Assembly: GCF_015062935.1 (NCBI RefSeq)
Contig: NZ_SUTM01000018.1
Coordinates: forward strand, 1-53,432
From: Methanobrevibacter sp.
Lineage (GTDB): Archaea; Methanobacteriota; Methanobacteria; Methanobacteriales; Methanobacteriaceae
Direction of reading: 5' to 3'
DNA: 53,432 nucleotides
The notes beneath the pieces were generated by a model. The model saw nothing but the letters and a program-made list of their open reading frames with translations, was not told where the DNA came from and ran no database searches. A program made the position numbers and the translations under genes. Shown in pieces: positions 43,122 through 53,432 of this stretch (positions are counted from its first letter, which is position 1; every line of letters begins with the position of its first letter).

Positions 43122-43142
43122 TTAGGAAAATTTATTTCCTAA
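43122..43142 (-). terminator. Hairpin containing the giant adhesin stop codon
   Basis: TTAGGAAA and TTTCCTAA form an 8-bp stem; the stop (43132-43134) lies in the loop. T-runs follow on the minus strand. Confidence 0.6.
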
Positions 43143-46100
43143 ATCTTCTTCTAATTTCATTTGATCCGATTGTTAACAATACCAATAACAATATCCATAA
43201 AGGATTACCTGTTGGATAATCAGATAAGCTGACTCCACCTTCACTGACATCCAATGTGATTTCATTTGAACCGTTTCCATTAGTGCCGTTATTGTTATCA
43301 TTAACAACTACATAAGTTACAGTAGTAGTTGGACCATATTTGTCATCACCGGAGTAAACTACAGTAGCCTTATAAGTACCAGCAGCCAATCCAGGAATGC
43401 TGACTATTGCTTTTCCATTAAATACCTGTGCAGTATATGTTTTGCCGTCAATAGTTATTGTTACGATTCCTGTTGCATCCGTTGGAAGTTTGATTGTTAC
43501 TGTTGCATCATCACCTACCATAATTTCATCACCAGTGGCGGAAATTTTTGATTTAGCCTTTTCCACAGTGAATTTTACAGTAGTTGAATTTTCCAGATAC
43601 TTGCCGTCACCACCATAAGTGACTTTGGCAGTGTATTTTCCTGCTGCAAGTTTAGGAACAATCACTTTAGCAACACCATTGACAATATCGCCATAGTAAC
43701 CTACACCATTGATTTCTACAAGCACTTGACCTATTGCATCTTTTGGAACATTGACTGTGATTACTTCGTCTTTACCTGCAGTAATGTCTTTTCCGGATGC
43801 TGATATGGTTGATTTAACTTTAGATACAGTGAATGAGACTGAAGTTGAATTTTCAAGATAATTATCATCACCACCGTATTCGATATGAGCTGTTTTATCG
43901 CCTGCAGTCAGGTCAGGAATGCTGATTTCTGCTTTTCCGTCTTTGATTTGGCCAGTATATGATTTACCATCCACTTCAACAGTTACGGTTCCAGTAGCCT
44001 TTTGAGGAACATTAACAACAATTACAACTGTTTCACCAACATTTATGTCATTAGCTGCAGCATCAATTGGAGCATTATATTTTGGAACTTCTACAGTGAT
44101 TTTATCTGTTTTGCTTGCATAATTGTTGTCACCAGAGTAATAGATTTCAGCTTCATGCACTCCAGGAGTAGCATTTTCCAGATTGATTACCGCAGTACCG
44201 TTTTCAACTTTAGCAGTGAAAGTTTCATCGCCAATTTTAACGGTTACATTACCCGTTGCGTCTTCAGGTAATTTTATGACAAGTGTGCCGTTGCCCTGAT
44301 CGACTTCATCTATTTTAGTGTCGATTTTTGACACTGTGAATAATGTTGTATTGGTTGCAGGCAGGTATTTTTCATCACCGTTGTATCTTACACTGACGTA
44401 GTATTCTCCTTTTGGAAGACCGGATATTACCAATTGACCGTTTCCTCCGCTTACTGCGACTGTGTATTTTCCAGCACCTTCGGTTGTGGTTAAAGTTCCG
44501 TCGTCCAGGTTGAAGTTGTATTCCTCACCGTCAATGATAACAGTGACGTTTCCGGTAGCATCATTTGGAACAAGCAGTTTGATGTTTTCGTTTTCGCCTA
44601 CCATGATGTTTGTTGCCATTGGAATTACGAATGATTCAATCTTTTCAACTTTAAATGTAGCTGAAGTATGACTTGGCATGTATTGGTCATCTCCAGTGTA
44701 TGTTACATTAACATCATATACTCCATTTGTTAAATGTGGAATTTCAGCAACGCCAGTGCCGTTGGTAATGTTTACATAATATCCAACGCCATCAATGTCA
44801 ATTAAGACTTGTCCTGTTGCATTTTCAGGAAGTTTTACAGTGACTTTTAGAGTTTCTCCAACATATATGTCTTCAACTGTTGCAGTCACTTCAGTAGGAC
44901 GTTTGTCTACTTCGAATTGGGCAGTAGTTGTATTTGCGTTGTAGTTTTCATCACCATCATATTTTACAAATACTGATTTTTTGCCTTGATCTAAGTTTTC
45001 AACTGAGAATGTTGCTTTGCCGTCTTCGATTGGAGCAGTGTATGTTTCACCATCGATTTCAATAGTGATAGAACCAGTAACTCCTTCAGGAACATTAACT
45101 ACTATTGTTTCTTTATCTCCTACTTTGATGTTTTCTACAGTTATGTCAAGTGGAGTGTCCAGTTTAGCTCCTTTTATAACTGAGGTAGTATTAGCCGCTT
45201 CATGAGTATCGTCACCGGAGTAGATGATTTCAACTTCATGGTCGCCAGGAGTTACATTACCATCCAATTGAACAACAGCAGTACCATTAACAACAGTAGC
45301 ATTATACTCTTTATCTCCAACCTTAATTGTGACATTGCCTGTAGCATTATCACCAACAACAACCACAACAGTACCATTACCTTGGTCGATGACCTTCATA
45401 TCCGGAGTTTCTTTAGCTTTCTCAACAGTTAAATTACCAACTGAACTGTTTCCAGCATAATTATCATCACCAGAGTATTTAACAGCAATTGTGTGATCAC
45501 CATCAGTTAAATTATCAACTGTGACAACAGCCTTACCATTTTCAACAGGTACTGTGTAATCTTTACCGCCAACACTAACAGTCACATTACCAGTAGCATC
45601 ATCAGGCACAGTAACAGTAACAGTTACAGACTCACCCTCTTTAGCATCACCAATTTCAACTTCAATAGGAGCATCATACTTAGGAGCAGTAATCTCAGAA
45701 GTAGCATTAGCCGCATCGTGTGTATCGTCACCGGAGTAGATGATTTCAACTTCATGAGTACCAGGAGTTACATTACCATCCAATTGAACAACAGCAGTAC
45801 CATTAACAACAGTAGCATTATACTCCTTGTCACCAACCTTAATTGTAACATTACCTGTAGCATTATCACCAACAACAACCACAACAGTACCATTACCTTG
45901 GTCGATAATCTTCATGTCAGGAACAACCTTAGCCTTATCAACTGTTAAATTGCCAACTGTGTAATTAGCAATGTAATTGTCATCACCAAAGTATTCTATA
46001 GCAATAGTGTGATTACCTGGAGATAAATCATCTACAGTTACTACCGCTTTGCCATTTTCAATAGGTGCAGTGTAGTTTTTACCACCGACACTGACAACAA

Positions 46101-49100
46101 CATCTCCAGTAGTTCCTTCAGGAACTTTAACTGTGATTGTAGTGTTTTCACCTTCTTTAGCTTCACCAATTTCTAAGTCAATTGGAGTATCGTACTTAGG
46201 AGCTGTGATATTTGCATCGGTTGAAGTAGCATTATGAGTATCATCACCTGAATAAATTACTTCAATTTCATGAGTACCAGGAGTTACATTACCATCCAAT
46301 TGAACAACAGCAGTACCATTAACAACAGTAGCATTATACTCCTTGTCACCAACCTTAATTGTGACATTACCTGTAGCATTATCACCAACAACAACCACAA
46401 CAGTACCATTACCCTGATCAATGACTTTAACATCAGGATTTACTAAAGCCTTCTCAACAGTTAAATTACCAACTGAACTGTTTCCAACATAATTATCATC
46501 ACCAGAATAAACAACAGCAATAGTATGATCACCATCAGTTAAATTATCAACAGTAACAACAGCCTTACCATCCTCAACAGGTACTGTGTAATCCTTACCG
46601 CCAACACTAACAGTCACATTACCAGTAGCATTTTCTGGAACTTTAACAGTAATTACAGTAGGTTCGCCCTCTTTAGCATCACCAATTTCAACTTCAATAG
46701 GAGCATCATACTTAGGAGCAGTAATCTCAGAAGTAGCATTAGCAGCTTCATGTGTATCGTCACCGGAGTAGATAACTTCAACTTCATGAGTACCAGGAGT
46801 TACATTACCATCCAGTTCAACGATAGCAGTACCGTTAACAACAGTAGCATTATACTCTTTATCCCCAACCTTAATTGTGACATTGCCTGTAGCATTATCA
46901 CCAACAACAACCACAACAGTACCATTACCCTGGTCAATGACTTTAACATCAGGATTTACTAGAGCTTTCTCAACAGTTAAATTACCAACTGAACTGTTTC
47001 CAGCATAATTATCATCACCAGAATATTTAACAGCAATAGTATGATCACCATCAGTTAAATTATCAACTGTGACAACAGCTTTACCATTTTCAACAGGTAC
47101 TGTGTAATCCTTACCGCCAACACTAACAGTCACATTACCAGTAGCATCATCAGGCACAGTAACAGTAATTACAGTAGGTTCGCCCTCTTTAGCATCACCA
47201 ATTTCAACTTCAATAGGAGCATCATACTTAGGAGCAGTAATCTCAGAAGTAGCATTAGCCGCATCGTGTGTATCGTCACCGGAGTAGATAACTTCAACTT
47301 CATGAGTACCAGGAGTTACATTACCATCCAATTGAACAACAGCAGTACCGTTAACAACAGTAGCATTATACTCTTTATCACCGACTTTAACAGTGACATT
47401 ACCGGTAGCATTATCACCAACAACAACCACAACAGTACCATTACCCTGATCAATGACCTTCATATCCGGAGTTTCTTTAGCTTTCACAACAGTTAAATTG
47501 CCAATAGTATAATTAGCAACATAATTGTCATCACCGAAGTATTCTACAGCAATAGTGTGATTACCAGGAGTTAAATCATCAACAGTTACTACCGCTTTAC
47601 CGTTCTCAATAGGTGCAGTGTAGTTCTTACCACCTACACTGACAACAACATCACCAGTAGTTCCTTCAGGAACTTTAACTGTGATTGTAGTATTTTCACC
47701 TTCTTTAGCTTCACCAATTTCTAAGTCAATTGGAGTATCGTACTTAGGAGCTGTGATGTTTGCATCAGTTGAAGTAGCATTATGAGTATCATCACCTGAA
47801 TAGATTACTTCAATTTCATGAGTGCCAGGAGTTACATTACCGTCTAAAGTTACAACAGCAGTACCGTTAACAACAGTAGCATTATACTCTTTACCATCCA
47901 CTTTAACAGTCACATTACCAGTAGCATTATCACCAACAACAACCACAACAGTACCATTACCTTGATCAATAACCTTCATGTCTGGAACTTCTTTAGCCTT
48001 TTCAACAGTCAGATTGCCAATTGAATAAGTGCCTGTGAAATTGTCATCTCCAGTGTAGACAACAGCAATAGTATGATCACCAGCAGTCAAGTTATCAACA
48101 GTAACAATAACCTCACCATCTTTAACTGTTCCAGTGTAATTCTTACCACCAACATTGACAATCACATCACCAGTAGCACCATCAGGAACTTTAACAGTGA
48201 CATTGAACTGTTCGCCTTCCTTAGCCTCACCAATCACAACATCAATTGAAGAATCATACTTAGGAGCAGTTATGTTAGCAGTGGAGTTAGCTGCCTCATG
48301 AGTAGCATCACCTGAATAGATTATCTCAACTTCATGAGTACCAGGAGTTACATTGCCATCCAATTGAACAACAGCAGTACCATTAACAACAGTAGCATTA
48401 AACTCTTTATCTCCAACTTTAACAGTGACATTACCAGTAGCATCATCACCAATAACAACCACAACAGTGCCGTTGCCTTGATCAATAACTTTCATGTCCG
48501 GAGTTGATTTGGCTTCTTTAACAGTCACATTACCGATTGTGTAGTTAGCGGAGAAGTTACCGTCACCAGAATACTCGACAACATAAGTTTTATTGCCGGC
48601 AGTTAAATCATCAATAGTAACAACAGCAACACCATCCTTAATCTCACAAGGATACTCCTTACCATCAATATAAACGGTTACATTACCAGTGGCGCCATCA
48701 GGAACCTCTACAGTAACAACCAACGGTTCGCCTTCAGTAACCTCAGAAGCATCGACTTTAACCTCAGTAGAATACTTAGGAGCAGTTATCTCAACTGTAG
48801 CGTTAGTTGCCTCATGAGTATCATCACCAGAGTAAATCACATCAACTTCATGAGTTCCAGGAGTTACATTGCCATCCAATTGAACAACAGCAGTACCATT
48901 AACAACAGTAGAATTATACTCCTTATCACCAACCTTAATAGTCACATTACCACTAGCATTATCACCAACAACAACCACAACAGTACCATTACCTTGATCA
49001 ATAACCTTCATGTCAGGAACAACTTTCGCTTCATCGACTGTAAAGTTACCGATAGTGTAGTTTGAAGCGTAGTTATCATCACCGGCATATTCAACAATGA

Positions 49101-52100
49101 GTGATTTGTCGCCGGCAGTTAAATTGCTTATAGGAATTGTAGCAGTACCGTTAACGATTTCAGCAGAGTACTTTTGACCATCAAATGTTACGGTTACATT
49201 ACCAGTAGCATTTTCAGGAACTTTAACAGTGATTGTAGCGGTTTCCCCTTCTGTGACTTCAGTAACATTGACAACGAACGGAGTATCATATTTAGGTCCG
49301 ATTATTGTTGTATTGACTGTAGAGTTGGTGTGAGTGTCATCACCAGAGTATATGACTTCAACATCATTAACGCCAGGAGTTAAATTACCCACTTGAACAA
49401 CAGCAGTACCATTAACAACAGTAGCATTGAATACATTATCTCCAACCTTAATAGTCACATTACCAGTAGCATTATCACCAACAACAACCACAACAGTACC
49501 ATTACCATGATCAACAACAACCAATTCAGGAACTGCCTTAGCATTGCCGACAGTGAAGTTGACTGTTGTGTAGTTTGAAGTGTAGTTGGCATCACCGGCA
49601 TATTCGATGATTGCTGTTTTGTTTCCTGCGGTTAAGTTTTCAACAGTTATGACTGCAGTTCCGTTGTCGATTTCAGCAGTGTATTTTTGACCATCAATTG
49701 TTACAGTCACATTACCAGTAGTATCCTTAGGAACTTTAACAGTAATTGTAGTATTTTCTCCTTCTTTTCCTTCATCAACAGTGACAGCAAACTCAGTATC
49801 CAGTCTTGGAATGGTTACGGTGCCGTTTACTGTTGAATTGGAATGTTTATCATCACCGGAATAGACGACTTCAATATCGTTGACGCCAGGAGTTACATTT
49901 TCTAATGTGATTACGGCAGTTCCGTTGACTATTTCTCCGGTGAAGTTTTTACCATCAACATAAACAGTTACATTACCAGTGGCATTTCCGCCAACGACCA
50001 CAACAACTGTTCCGTTTCCTTGATCAATGACTTTGATATCCTCGGAAGTTACATTGACTTTGGATACTTCAAGTTTTGCTGTGGTATTGCTTGGTCCGAA
50101 TCTGTCAGTTCCGGCGAATGTGACATTTACTGTGTAGTTTCCAACATCCAGTCCTGGAACGACAAGTATTCCGTTACCTCCAGCAACATAAACTGTGTAA
50201 TTTTTACCATCAACATTTACGGTTACATTTCCGTTCAGTTCTTTAGGAGCAGTAATGTTGATTATTGCCATGTCTCCCACTGTGATATTTTCCACTTTAA
50301 CGGAAATGTCTGCTTTAGTTATGTTTACATTAAAGCTAGATGAATTATCTGCTGTATCCCAGTATTCGTCTCCTGAGTATTCAGCAGTTACATGATAAGT
50401 TTTATTCAATAAATTATCGACTTCAAGGGCTATTTCTTGGCCAGGTACGATATCCGCATGATATTTTGTTCCGTCCACATCAATTACAACGAATCCTGTT
50501 GCGTTATCAGGGAGGTTTATAATGATTTTTGCAACTTTACCTGCAGAAGTATCGTTAACATCAATTGTGAGGGTCGGTTTGACTTTAGTCACATTGAATA
50601 TTGCTGAAGTCCAATTGCCTCTGAAGTTGTTGTCTCCTTCATAGATTACGACAACACTGTGGTTTCCTGCTGGCAGATTGGTTAATGTGAGGTTTGCAGT
50701 TCCGTTTGTTATTGGCCTTGTGTAGTTTACGCCGTCGACATTGATTGTTACATTGCCTGTTGCGTTTTTATTGCTGAGTGTTACGTTGATTGTCTCTTTT
50801 CCACCGGTTGCAATATCGTCCACATCAACGTTGACTGTAGTATTGTCTGCGTTTACAAAGAAGAGTGCAGTAGCAGTAGCCTTATTGTAGTTTTCGTTTC
50901 CGTTGAAGGTTACTTCAACAGGATATTCACCTACATTCAAGTTATATAGATATTCATGAGCTTTTTCATTATATGTAGGGAGCGGATTATGTGCTGCTCT
51001 GAGAACTACAATAGCATTATCATCTTCTCTTAAAACAATAGTTTCTTCAGTTCCGTTTACTTTAATTGTAACATTGCCCTCAGCATTTACGCGAACGATA
51101 ATGTGTTCGACTCCACCATAGGTTATGTTTTGAACTTCAATTGTAATTGTTGGATCTTTCTTGAATACTGTGAAGTTCGCTTTTGCTGAACTGTCTGTGT
51201 AGTTTGCATTACCTTTATAATCCACACGTACAGTATAATTGCCTGCATCCAGGAATACTGGCAAGACATATTCATAATTAACTATATCAATATTGCCGAA
51301 AGCAGTTACCATATCTCCGTCTGTAGCATTGAATATGAAAATATCAACTTTACCAGTAGCATTTACATAAATTGTGAATAAGCTTTCCTCGGAGTATGTA
51401 ATGTTTTGAGCAATTACATAAATCGGCATGACTCCTTTTTCCACTGTGAATGTGTTGTTTGCAGTTGCATTCATGTATTTATCATTGCCTGCGAAGTAGA
51501 TTGTCACATTGTAGTTACCTGCAGCCAAGTTTTCAACAGTCAAGTTACCTTTACCTTCAATTATGAATGCAGTGTAGTTTCTGCCGTTGATTTCGACTTT
51601 TATTGGGGCAGTAATGCTTTCAACAGATTCAAATTTGATAAGCTCTTTAGCACCATATGTAATGTCGGTTCCGTTCACGCTGAATGTAGGTTGGATTCTT
51701 AATATTGTGAAGTCAGTGCCGTTGGTGCTTGAGAGGTATTGGTCATCACCGATGTAGGTTACGTTTACAATGTATTTGCCGTTTTCTAAGTTCTTGATTA
51801 CAATAGAACCGTTTCCGTTTGTAGTGTTTACAGTATAGTTGGTTCCGTTAACGTTTACGATTACATATCCTGTAGCGTTTGCTGGAATTGTTACATTTAC
51901 GATTGCATCCATGCCAACCACTGTTGCAGAAGCTGTTACGTTTACTTGTGAACTGCGTTTGGTTACAGTGAAGTTTTGAGTAGTTGAGTTGAATACATAC
52001 TTGTTGTTGCCTTCATAGATTGCAACAACTGTTTTATTACCATAGGTTAGATCTGCAACGTAGAATGTTGCATTTCCTTTGTTGTCAGTCACATTGGTGT

Positions 52101-53432
52101 ATTTCTTACCGTTGATTTCGATTGTTGCGGTTCCACCAGCAATTTCTTTAGGAACGCTTACGATGACTTTGACTGTGTCGCCGACTTTGGCATCAGCAAC
52201 TGTAATGTTCATTGGAGTGTCCCATTTGATTACATGGAAGTTGGTTGTCACTGTCTTGTTGGCATATTTGGCGTCACCGAATGTGGCATTAACCACATAT
52301 TTGCCTGCAATTATTTTATTCAAGCTCAATGTAGCAACACCATGATTAATTGTAGCGTTTCCAGCAAATGAACCGTTTACATAAATTGAGACATTGCCGG
52401 TTACATCCTCTGGGACATTGACAACGATGGTAGTGTTTACTCCGACTTTGGTATCAGGAGCAGTCACGTTCATGTCATAACATGCAAATTTATGGACATT
52501 TACCTTATTTATTTGAGTGGTTGATGCATTTGTGAAGTTTCTATCACCACTATAGTTAGCTATGACAGTGTAATTACCTACATTTAATTGTTTAATTACG
52601 ATTTTTGCAACACCGTTTTCAATAGGGCTTGAGTAGTTTTCACCGTTTACAGTAATGTTAATGTTACCAGTAGTGCCAGGAGTAATGTGGACCACGACAG
52701 TAGCGTTTCTAGCAGAACTTACTTCAACTGTTTCAATTGTGATTACAGGAGTGACTTGTCTAACTTCAAATGATCTGTTAACCTTATTGGTGTTGTTGAC
52801 ATTGTATCTGCCGTCACCGGAATAGTTAGCATAAACTGTGTAGTTATCGGCTGCAAGGCCATCAACAATCCAGTTGACCTTACCTTTAACGACAGGTAAA
52901 GTTATATTTCTGGTTTCATTGATTCTGATTGTAATGAAGCCGGTTGCATCAGGTCTAACAGTGACTGTGATGTTTGCATTTTGAGCATAATCAATACTAT
53001 CAACACTAATGACCATAGTAGTGTTCACTTTGGTCATTTCAAATGTCTTGTCGTTGTTAGTATCAGTCAAGTATTGGCTGTCACCAAGATATGTTGCATG
53101 GACATAGTAGGTTCCGTTTCCAAGACCTTTGATTTGTACGGATCCAGCGCCACCAGTTAGGTTAATTGTGTAGTTAGTGCCGTTCACATTAACAGTCACA
53201 TATCCTGTAGCATTGCTTTGCACACTGACCTCAATGGTTGCATTGCCACCAACTGAATTTCCTCTGGCCACAACACTTAAATCAGACACACGTTTGGACA
53301 CAGTGAAGTTACTGGTAGTAGAGTTAAACATGTATTTAGCATCTCCACCATAGGTTGCAACAACAGTCTTATCACCATAAGTTATGGAAGGAACAGTAAA
53401 GCTAGCAACACCATTAGCATCAGTAGTAGACT
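43132..53432 (-). CDS. Giant adhesin-like surface protein with Ig-like repeats (5' end outside window)
   Basis: The open frame continues without a stop to the right edge; at least 3,430 residues are visible and the N terminus is missing. It consists almost entirely of Ig-like beta-sandwich repeats of about 85-90 residues (ending YSGDDxY...FTV), roughly 38-39 in view. They are rich in Asn-X-Ser/Thr sequons (NATGNVTV) and almost lack Cys. The middle (45.2-50.0 kb) is a near-identical 172-residue two-domain repeat. A Gly/Asn linker, the motif YPTGNP, a membrane helix (about WILLLVLLTIG) and a basic tail RRRFRK end it. It probably projects through the pseudomurein wall and mediates adhesion. The binding partner is unknown. 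Confidence 0.92.
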   Translation of the reverse strand, partial: STTDANGVASFTVPSITYGDKTVVATYGGDAKYMFNSTTSNFTVSKRVSDLSVVARGNSVGGNATIEVSVQSNATGYVTVNVNGTNYTINLTGGAGSVQIKGLGNGTYYVHATYLGDSQYLTDTNNDKTFEMTKVNTTMVISVDSIDYAQNANITVTVRPDATGFITIRINETRNITLPVVKGKVNWIVDGLAADNYTVYANYSGDGRYNVNNTNKVNRSFEVRQVTPVITIETVEVSSARNATVVVHITPGTTGNINITVNGENYSSPIENGVAKIVIKQLNVGNYTVIANYSGDRNFTNASTTQINKVNVHKFACYDMNVTAPDTKVGVNTTIVVNVPEDVTGNVSIYVNGSFAGNATINHGVATLSLNKIIAGKYVVNATFGDAKYANKTVTTNFHVIKWDTPMNITVADAKVGDTVKVIVSVPKEIAGGTATIEINGKKYTNVTDNKGNATFYVADLTYGNKTVVAIYEGNNKYVFNSTTQNFTVTKRSSQVNVTASATVVGMDAIVNVTIPANATGYVIVNVNGTNYTVNTTNGNGSIVIKNLENGKYIVNVTYIGDDQYLSSTNGTDFTILRIQPTFSVNGTDITYGAKELIKFESVESITAPIKVEINGRNYTAFIIEGKGNLTVENLAAGNYNVTIYFAGNDKYMNATANNTFTVEKGVMPIYVIAQNITYSEESLFTIYVNATGKVDIFIFNATDGDMVTAFGNIDIVNYEYVLPVFLDAGNYTVRVDYKGNANYTDSSAKANFTVFKKDPTITIEVQNITYGGVEHIIVRVNAEGNVTIKVNGTEETIVLREDDNAIVVLRAAHNPLPTYNEKAHEYLYNLNVGEYPVEVTFNGNENYNKATATALFFVNADNTTVNVDVDDIATGGKETINVTLSNKNATGNVTINVDGVNYTRPITNGTANLTLTNLPAGNHSVVVIYEGDNNFRGNWTSAIFNVTKVKPTLTIDVNDTSAGKVAKIIINLPDNATGFVVIDVDGTKYHADIVPGQEIALEVDNLLNKTYHVTAEYSGDEYWDTADNSSSFNVNITKADISVKVENITVGDMAIINITAPKELNGNVTVNVDGKNYTVYVAGGNGILVVPGLDVGNYTVNVTFAGTDRFGPSNTTAKLEVSKVNVTSEDIKVIDQGNGTVVVVVGGNATGNVTVYVDGKNFTGEIVNGTAVITLENVTPGVNDIEVVYSGDDKHSNSTVNGTVTIPRLDTEFAVTVDEGKEGENTTITVKVPKDTTGNVTVTIDGQKYTAEIDNGTAVITVENLTAGNKTAIIEYAGDANYTSNYTTVNFTVGNAKAVPELVVVDHGNGTVVVVVGDNATGNVTIKVGDNVFNATVVNGTAVVQVGNLTPGVNDVEVIYSGDDTHTNSTVNTTIIGPKYDTPFVVNVTEVTEGETATITVKVPENATGNVTVTFDGQKYSAEIVNGTATIPISNLTAGDKSLIVEYAGDDNYASNYTIGNFTVDEAKVVPDMKVIDQGNGTVVVVVGDNASGNVTIKVGDKEYNSTVVNGTAVVQLDGNVTPGTHEVDVIYSGDDTHEATNATVEITAPKYSTEVKVDASEVTEGEPLVVTVEVPDGATGNVTVYIDGKEYPCEIKDGVAVVTIDDLTAGNKTYVVEYSGDGNFSANYTIGNVTVKEAKSTPDMKVIDQGNGTVVVVIGDDATGNVTVKVGDKEFNATVVNGTAVVQLDGNVTPGTHEVEIIYSGDATHEAANSTANITAPKYDSSIDVVIGEAKEGEQFNVTVKVPDGATGDVIVNVGGKNYTGTVKDGEVIVTVDNLTAGDHTIAVVYTGDDNFTGTYSIGNLTVEKAKEVPDMKVIDQGNGTVVVVVGDNATGNVTVKVDGKEYNATVVNGTAVVTLDGNVTPGTHEIEVIYSGDDTHNATSTDANITAPKYDTPIDLEIGEAKEGENTTITVKVPEGTTGDVVVSVGGKNYTAPIENGKAVVTVDDLTPGNHTIAVEYFGDDNYVANYTIGNLTVVKAKETPDMKVIDQGNGTVVVVVGDNATGNVTVKVGDKEYNATVVNGTAVVQLDGNVTPGTHEVEVIYSGDDTHDAANATSEITAPKYDAPIEVEIGDAKEGEPTVITVTVPDDATGNVTVSVGGKDYTVPVENGKAVVTVDNLTDGDHTIAVKYSGDDNYAGNSSVGNLTVEKALVNPDVKVIDQGNGTVVVVVGDNATGNVTIKVGDKEYNATVVNGTAIVELDGNVTPGTHEVEVIYSGDDTHEAANATSEITAPKYDAPIEVEIGDAKEGEPTVITVKVPENATGNVTVSVGGKDYTVPVEDGKAVVTVDNLTDGDHTIAVVYSGDDNYVGNSSVGNLTVEKALVNPDVKVIDQGNGTVVVVVGDNATGNVTIKVGDKEYNATVVNGTAVVQLDGNVTPGTHEIEVIYSGDDTHNATSTDANITAPKYDTPIDLEIGEAKEGENTTITVKVPEGTTGDVVVSVGGKNYTAPIENGKAVVTVDDLSPGNHTIAIEYFGDDNYIANYTVGNLTVDKAKVVPDMKIIDQGNGTVVVVVGDNATGNVTIKVGDKEYNATVVNGTAVVQLDGNVTPGTHEVEIIYSGDDTHDAANATSEITAPKYDAPIEVEIGDAKEGESVTVTVTVPDDATGNVTVSVGGKDYTVPVENGKAVVTVDNLTDGDHTIAVKYSGDDNYAGNSSVGNLTVEKAKETPDMKVIDQGNGTVVVVVGDNATGNVTIKVGDKEYNATVVNGTAVVQLDGNVTPGDHEVEIIYSGDDTHEAANTTSVIKGAKLDTPLDITVENIKVGDKETIVVNVPEGVTGSITIEIDGETYTAPIEDGKATFSVENLDQGKKSVFVKYDGDENYNANTTTAQFEVDKRPTEVTATVEDIYVGETLKVTVKLPENATGQVLIDIDGVGYYVNITNGTGVAEIPHLTNGVYDVNVTYTGDDQYMPSHTSATFKVEKIESFVIPMATNIMVGENENIKLLVPNDATGNVTVIIDGEEYNFNLDDGTLTTTEGAGKYTVAVSGGNGQLVISGLPKGEYYVSVRYNGDEKYLPATNTTLFTVSKIDTKIDEVDQGNGTLVIKLPEDATGNVTVKIGDETFTAKVENGTAVINLENATPGVHEAEIYYSGDNNYASKTDKITVEVPKYNAPIDAAANDINVGETVVIVVNVPQKATGTVTVEVDGKSYTGQIKDGKAEISIPDLTAGDKTAHIEYGGDDNYLENSTSVSFTVSKVKSTISASGKDITAGKDEVITVNVPKDAIGQVLVEINGVGYYGDIVNGVAKVIVPKLAAGKYTAKVTYGGDGKYLENSTTVKFTVEKAKSKISATGDEIMVGDDATVTIKLPTDATGIVTITIDGKTYTAQVFNGKAIVSIPGLAAGTYKATVVYSGDDKYGPTTTVTYVVVNDNNNGTNGNGSNEITLDVSEGGVSLSDYPTGNPLWILLLVLLTIGSNEIRRRFRK
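45170..48270 (-). repeat. 1,548-nt block duplication (three repeat units) within the array
   Basis: The variant unit carrying PKYDTPIDLEIGEAKEGEN occurs twice (marker TTCTAAGTCA at 46171 and 47719), exactly 1,548 bases (3 x 516) apart. Flanking units match in the same order, so units 5-7 and 8-10 (protein order) form a duplicated block. Confidence 0.8.
45170..50040 (-). repeat. 516-nt tandem repeat array in the giant adhesin gene
   Basis: Ten copies of a two-Ig-domain unit are recognised by the segment VIDQGNGTVVVVVGDNATGN. An internal marker, GTAGCATTAT on the plus strand or its variants, occurs at 45341, 45857, 46373, 46889, 47405, 47921, 48437 and 48953, spaced exactly 516 bases. The last two, at 49466 and 49979, are spaced 513. 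Central copies are nearly identical at DNA level; those at the N-terminal side are more diverged. Confidence 0.9.

Follow-up and report, generated by a model that had tools for sequence, protein, structure and literature searches.

A tandem array of two-domain Ig-like units in a giant Methanobrevibacter adhesin-like protein, with signs of lineage-specific expansion and gene conversion

The window, by which we mean the whole stretch of DNA analysed, is an entire contig (C18, 53,432 bp), one of 44 that make up a 2.5-Mb genome. Besides archaeal-type genes, e.g. those for an archaeal alanine-tRNA ligase and a CDC48 AAA ATPase, it carries on the minus strand an ORF (43132-53430) with no stop anywhere inside, coding for 3,432 aa of an adhesin-like protein. 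The 5′ end of the ORF is open and the N-terminus is truncated where the contig stops at 53432; when its continuation was sought in other contigs, the contig end matched only parts of the ORF's own gene. Relatives of the window loci found in the named-genome scan were almost exclusively from Methanobrevibacter (seven related loci, only two of them close).

An NCBIfam search gave no name for the protein. Among Pfam families, Big_3_5 (PF16640, archaeal Ig-like) matched it in 39 stretches with a whole-protein score of 1049 bits; additional matches (DUF6621 etc.) were discarded as repeat-driven. Since the whole genome has more than 150 Big_3_5 matches, the protein is, by this domain count, one of many adhesin-like proteins (ALPs) in the genome. 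It has the features by which ALPs are recognised: Big/ABD Ig-like repeats, great length (3432+ aa), a composition rich in Asn and Thr (329 N, 434 T) and a terminal membrane-anchoring segment, here a C-terminal hydrophobic stretch with a basic tail, judged by eye on the sequence. N-X-S/T sequons number 220, versus 53 in shuffles, an excess consistent with a secreted glycoprotein. A signal/TM stretch opens the intact relatives, some of which have a glycine/asparagine-rich region resembling the beta-helix domain seen in other ALPs.

The C-terminal order of YPTGNP, hydrophobic stretch and RRRFRK is the layout of a sortase substrate (motif, hydrophobic stretch, basic tail); a canonical LPXTG is not present at the C-terminus of this ORF, which has YxTGNP instead. 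The same YxTGNP-hydrophobic-basic ending was seen in array-bearing intact relatives and, more widely, in long ORFs of many relatives (loci L170, L173, L175-L179, L181 and L193). The signal has no NCBIfam name, nor is it named in those parts of the ALP paper that we draw on. The genome has one sortase match (PF04203, E 1.4e-17; L140, G000:C11:22621-22965); M. ruminantium M1 also carries one sortase (PMC2812497). A link between presence of a sortase and the YxTGNP motif was considered and dropped: PF04203 sortases occur in 56 of the 60 genus genomes, including some without the motif, and because the enzyme is near-universal in the genus, presence or absence is uninformative.

The array itself is made of ten domain pairs in tandem (Table 1). 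Each unit of 171 or 172 aa pairs two unlike Ig-like domains, A (PDMKVIDQGNGTVVVVVG...) and, after it, B; U10 lies at the low coordinate and U1 at the high one. Start-to-start spacing is 516 nt seven times, then 513 nt: eight 516-nt units (U3-U10) fill 44902-49029, and U2 and U1 are of 513 nt. Tandem Repeats Finder overlooks the array, because its longest period is 500.

Table 1. Features of the array gene (coordinates in the window)
Feature	Coordinates	Strand	Remarks
C-terminal sorting-like signal	43132..43218	-	YPTGNP, hydrophobic stretch, RRRFRK
Separate C-terminal A+B pair	43819..44313	-	orthologous pairs exist in relatives
Array of ten A+B two-domain units	44902..50055	-	U10 to U1
U10	44902..45417	-	516 nt, chimeric edge unit; A half 79-88% to array, B half 48-61%
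Stretch matching +1548 nt	45190..46422	-	92-96%, three segments
U9	45418..45933	-	516 nt
U8	45934..46449	-	516 nt; conversion tract in common with U9
U7	46450..46965	-	516 nt
U6	46966..47481	-	516 nt; 93% to U9, 92% to U7
U5	47482..47997	-	516 nt; B half 92% identical to U8
U4	47998..48513	-	516 nt; sister is a G002 unit
U3	48514..49029	-	516 nt; clusters with G002/G019/G007 units
U2	49030..49542	-	513 nt, edge unit; partner is a G019 unit
U1	49543..50055	-	513 nt, edge unit; clusters with other species' edge units
More diverged Ig-like domains	50056..53430	-	N-terminal to array; true N-terminus missing

Pairwise DNA identity of the units is 65-93% overall (71-93% among U3-U9, 65-71% for U10), and no exact direct repeat in the gene is longer than 107 nt (45635-45741 versus +1548). 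At the protein level U6/U7/U9 are 90-95% and U5/U8 92% identical; for most other pairs of 172-aa units the value is 66-79%. The original prediction spoke of an exact 516-nt array of near-identical copies. The spacing of eight units and a similarity far above chance (79, 78 and 81% at offsets of 516, 1032 and 1548 nt; 36.8%, maximum 41.3%, at other in-frame offsets) stood up, but two further units are of 513 nt and the copies are neither exact nor near-identical. A 1,548-nt block duplication, also proposed, corresponds to a real displacement by three units; this offset is, however, only slightly the best (81% versus 79%), is clean over only ∼1.2 kb and is mosaic, with high-identity segments at 45190-45620 (93%), 45635-45897 (96%) and 45944-46422 (92%). 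The signal comes from U5/U8 (90%) and U6/U9 (93%); U4/U7, despite the same offset, are at 79% no better than background, and U6/U7, just one unit apart (offset 516), are with 92% as similar as the offset-1548 pairs.

Other ALPs of the same genome are repetitive as well. One (L199 2-14497, G000:C3) has a period of 358 aa (1,074 nt) in about four to five copies with 78-92% DNA identity and exact repeats of up to 203 nt; in two others (L201 7338-14765 and L202 2-7861, G000:C4), tandem duplications of 179 and 177 aa include exact repeats of 372 and 490 nt and are more recent than the window array. With longer exact repeats in other ALPs of the genome, the window array is not exceptional. The idea that A/B alternation is a rule across ALPs was rejected: periods of two to five domains are common and single-domain periods (82-89 aa) also occur.

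Among U3-U9, NG86 dS ranged from 0.19 to 0.89 with a median of 0.69, and alaS of this genome compared with the nearest species in the comparison set gave 0.68; the unit values may be biased by codon usage (third-position GC is 21.5% in the array and 31.0% in the rest). As unit dS is close to that of the species split, the array cannot be called very recent. In our judgement the youngest copies (dS 0.19-0.38) have about a third to a half of the age of the alaS split, well past usual within-species distances; thus the ‘recent’ origin expected earlier was not confirmed. Such values, with no pair below 0.19 and no exact run longer than the 107 nt mentioned, agree with a static stalk: an array built long ago, kept by selection on fold and length and invariant between strains.

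Against a static stalk speak, however, signs of conversion between units. In a permutation test for shared tracts two pairs were significant, U8/U9 (unit nt 90-174) and U3/U5 (18-70), with p=0.0005 (0.010 corrected for 21 pairs). Both tracts were also significant on third codon positions alone, which indicates conversion and not only selection at the protein level. In U8/U9 a dS of 0.06 in the A-core stands beside 1.12 in the B-half.

A tree built on 68 units of thirteen genes argues in the same direction. Edge units, like the separate C-terminal A+B pair, cluster largely by position, across species; interior units cluster mostly within species (U5/U8 and U6/U7/U9 in the window, seven units in G009, four in RGIG2750 and two in G001), with the window units overall not forming one clade and some deeper forks weakly supported. 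Interior units are then younger than the separation from relatives, or homogenised after it, contrary to what a static stalk predicts.

The number of units also differs. The locus order ALP-DUF92-apgM is conserved; DUF92 adjoins the array gene and apgM comes then, marking the same place in relatives. Counting tandem AB units at this place (for draft contigs these are lower bounds, several contigs, including the window's, stopping inside the gene), we found 10 in the window, 3 in G001, 3 in G002, 2+1 in G007, at least 4 in G019 (C15, contig end) and 1 each in G006 and G015; the closest species, G003, has no tandem AB run at this locus, and a long ALP ORF is absent there in G004 and G010. At a second locus an orthologous gene has seven interior units in G009 versus one in G014, between orthologous edge units; the two genes have the same N-terminus (73% identity) and G014 is a single-contig genome. 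Given these differing numbers in orthologous genes, copy number changes between species by whole units, the comparison being between species with one genome per species. Such marked differences between related species, like the tracts and the tree, count against an invariant array, and we consider a static stalk possible but rather doubtful.

Taken together, the unit tree and the unit counts in orthologues support an expansion and contraction specific to the lineage, along with gene conversion. As judged from the sequences, interior units were multiplied within the lineage between conserved edge units, and short tracts were exchanged between copies. Unequal recombination or gene conversion, as originally predicted, is in this respect upheld.

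The G009 array (L103 3963-19901, G009:C14), homologous to that of the window, offers a contrast: among its seven interior units DNA identity is 90-100%, with one pair at 100% and a third unit at 98%; it is a better place than the window array to seek strain-level length variation. Draft contigs of G001, G003, G006, G007, G015 and G019 (L090, L092, L094, L095, L102 and L105) also break inside the array gene; as this happens repeatedly, drafts systematically lack its N-terminus and its full length.

Shuffling could matter more than length: gene conversion of B domains would yield new combinations of surface epitopes. In line with this, A halves are uniform (aa mean 87%) and B halves variable (67%), the nearest relatives of the A half and the B half of units differ, and U10 is a chimera with a B half foreign to the rest of the array. 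On the other hand, dN was below dS in every unit pair, with no signal of positive selection, and there is no known immune pressure aimed at the array protein; we regard predominance of shuffling as unlikely.

An assembly artefact, i.e. repeats collapsed, expanded or chimeric, might be suspected as the contig stops inside the array gene; it is very improbable, with units diverged and individually recognisable, exact repeats of 203-490 nt resolved by the same assembly in other ALP genes as against at most 107 nt in this one, and edge units matching orthologous edge units in other assemblies. Least probable of all, almost negligible, is phase variation by slippage toggling the gene on and off, which came from the original prediction only: both unit lengths, 516 and 513 nt, divide evenly by 3, and no stop interrupts the ORF. 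Unit gain or loss preserves frame, each unit being a whole number of codons (172 in the 516-nt units), and recombination therefore alters length and not expression, which leaves variation in reach of the surface protein plausible.

We return to expansion and conversion of whole units as the preferred reading: a giant Methanobrevibacter ALP stalk whose A+B units multiply and convert and vary in number, out-of-register recombination changing length and reach while the C-terminus anchors the protein. We give this reading a probability of roughly 0.7. Homologous recombination between units out of register would add or remove whole 172-aa units with the frame intact; the stalk would lengthen or shorten, and a putative N-terminal binding part would be held nearer to or further from the wall. 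The YPTGNP-hydrophobic-basic C-terminus would anchor the protein at the membrane or, putatively through sortase, to the wall. The divergence of the youngest unit pairs counts against this reading, so turnover in the window array is slow.

The AlphaFold model of one A+B unit (pLDDT 92.9) is all-beta and two-domain; its best PDB match was the Bap C region (7dm0), and SiiE (2yn3) also matched. With the giant adhesins Bap/BapA and SiiE the array thus has in common an Ig-like stalk and a matching fold; they differ in bacterial secretion and anchoring, and sequence identity to the model is only 16-20%. The B-repeats of SasG and Aap are staphylococcal G5-E repeats in which two different domains alternate as the recombining unit. 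Such alternation is common to the array as well, whereas the domain families differ and SasG and Aap are bacterial LPXTG-anchored proteins.

Periscope Proteins (PMC8201768, PMC9704523) appear to be the closest concept: they are surface proteins with a stalk of folded domains in tandem, a build that the anchor-like C-terminus and the all-beta model would suggest for the array protein too, and they likewise have long DNA repeats resembling one another and copy-number differences between homologues, known for the array between species. They are bacterial, and archaea are unmentioned in these two papers; the array is archaeal. Periscope SHIRT domains have 82-100% protein identity between neighbours, whereas the array repeats are less alike, and adjoining A and B domains are, owing to the alternation, only 34-43% identical. 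The Periscope threshold (tandem repeats longer than 50 residues and ≥80% identical; PMC8201768) is exceeded by U6/U7/U9 and U5/U8; most pairs stay below it. Neighbouring domains in large multidomain proteins usually have <50% identity, proposed to limit misfolding (PMC8201768). The A/B alternation may reconcile recombination with folding: neighbours are dissimilar, and like units could still recombine. One could speculate, quite tentatively, about an archaeal counterpart of Periscope Proteins, with stalk length tuned by gain and loss of A+B units, alternation avoiding misfolding and YxTGNP, possibly read by sortase, fixing the proteins to the pseudomurein wall.

The ALPs of Methanobrevibacter and Methanosphaera (PMC11532034; PMC2812497) are, like the array protein, giant secreted Asn/Thr-rich proteins with tandem Big3-type domains and a terminal hydrophobic anchor; their signal/TM start is matched by the intact relatives. 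Similar archaeal big domain (ABD) repeats in ALPs, proposed to extend reach, are already reported in PMC11532034. What sets the array apart is a fixed pair of unlike domains as unit, with evidence for lineage-specific expansion and gene conversion; the sections of the ALP papers cited here contain no report of unit turnover. The array is real and, as a case of stalk evolution among ALPs, ordinary to good, in a kind of adhesin already known.

In the two human gut methanogens of the PMC11532034 study, ALPs fill more than 10% of the genome. The array findings carry a warning that draft genomes undercount such repeats. ALPs are believed to attach methanogens to hydrogen-producing partners, and whole-unit recombination altering stalk length would be a testable route by which methanogens may adjust contact with these partners.
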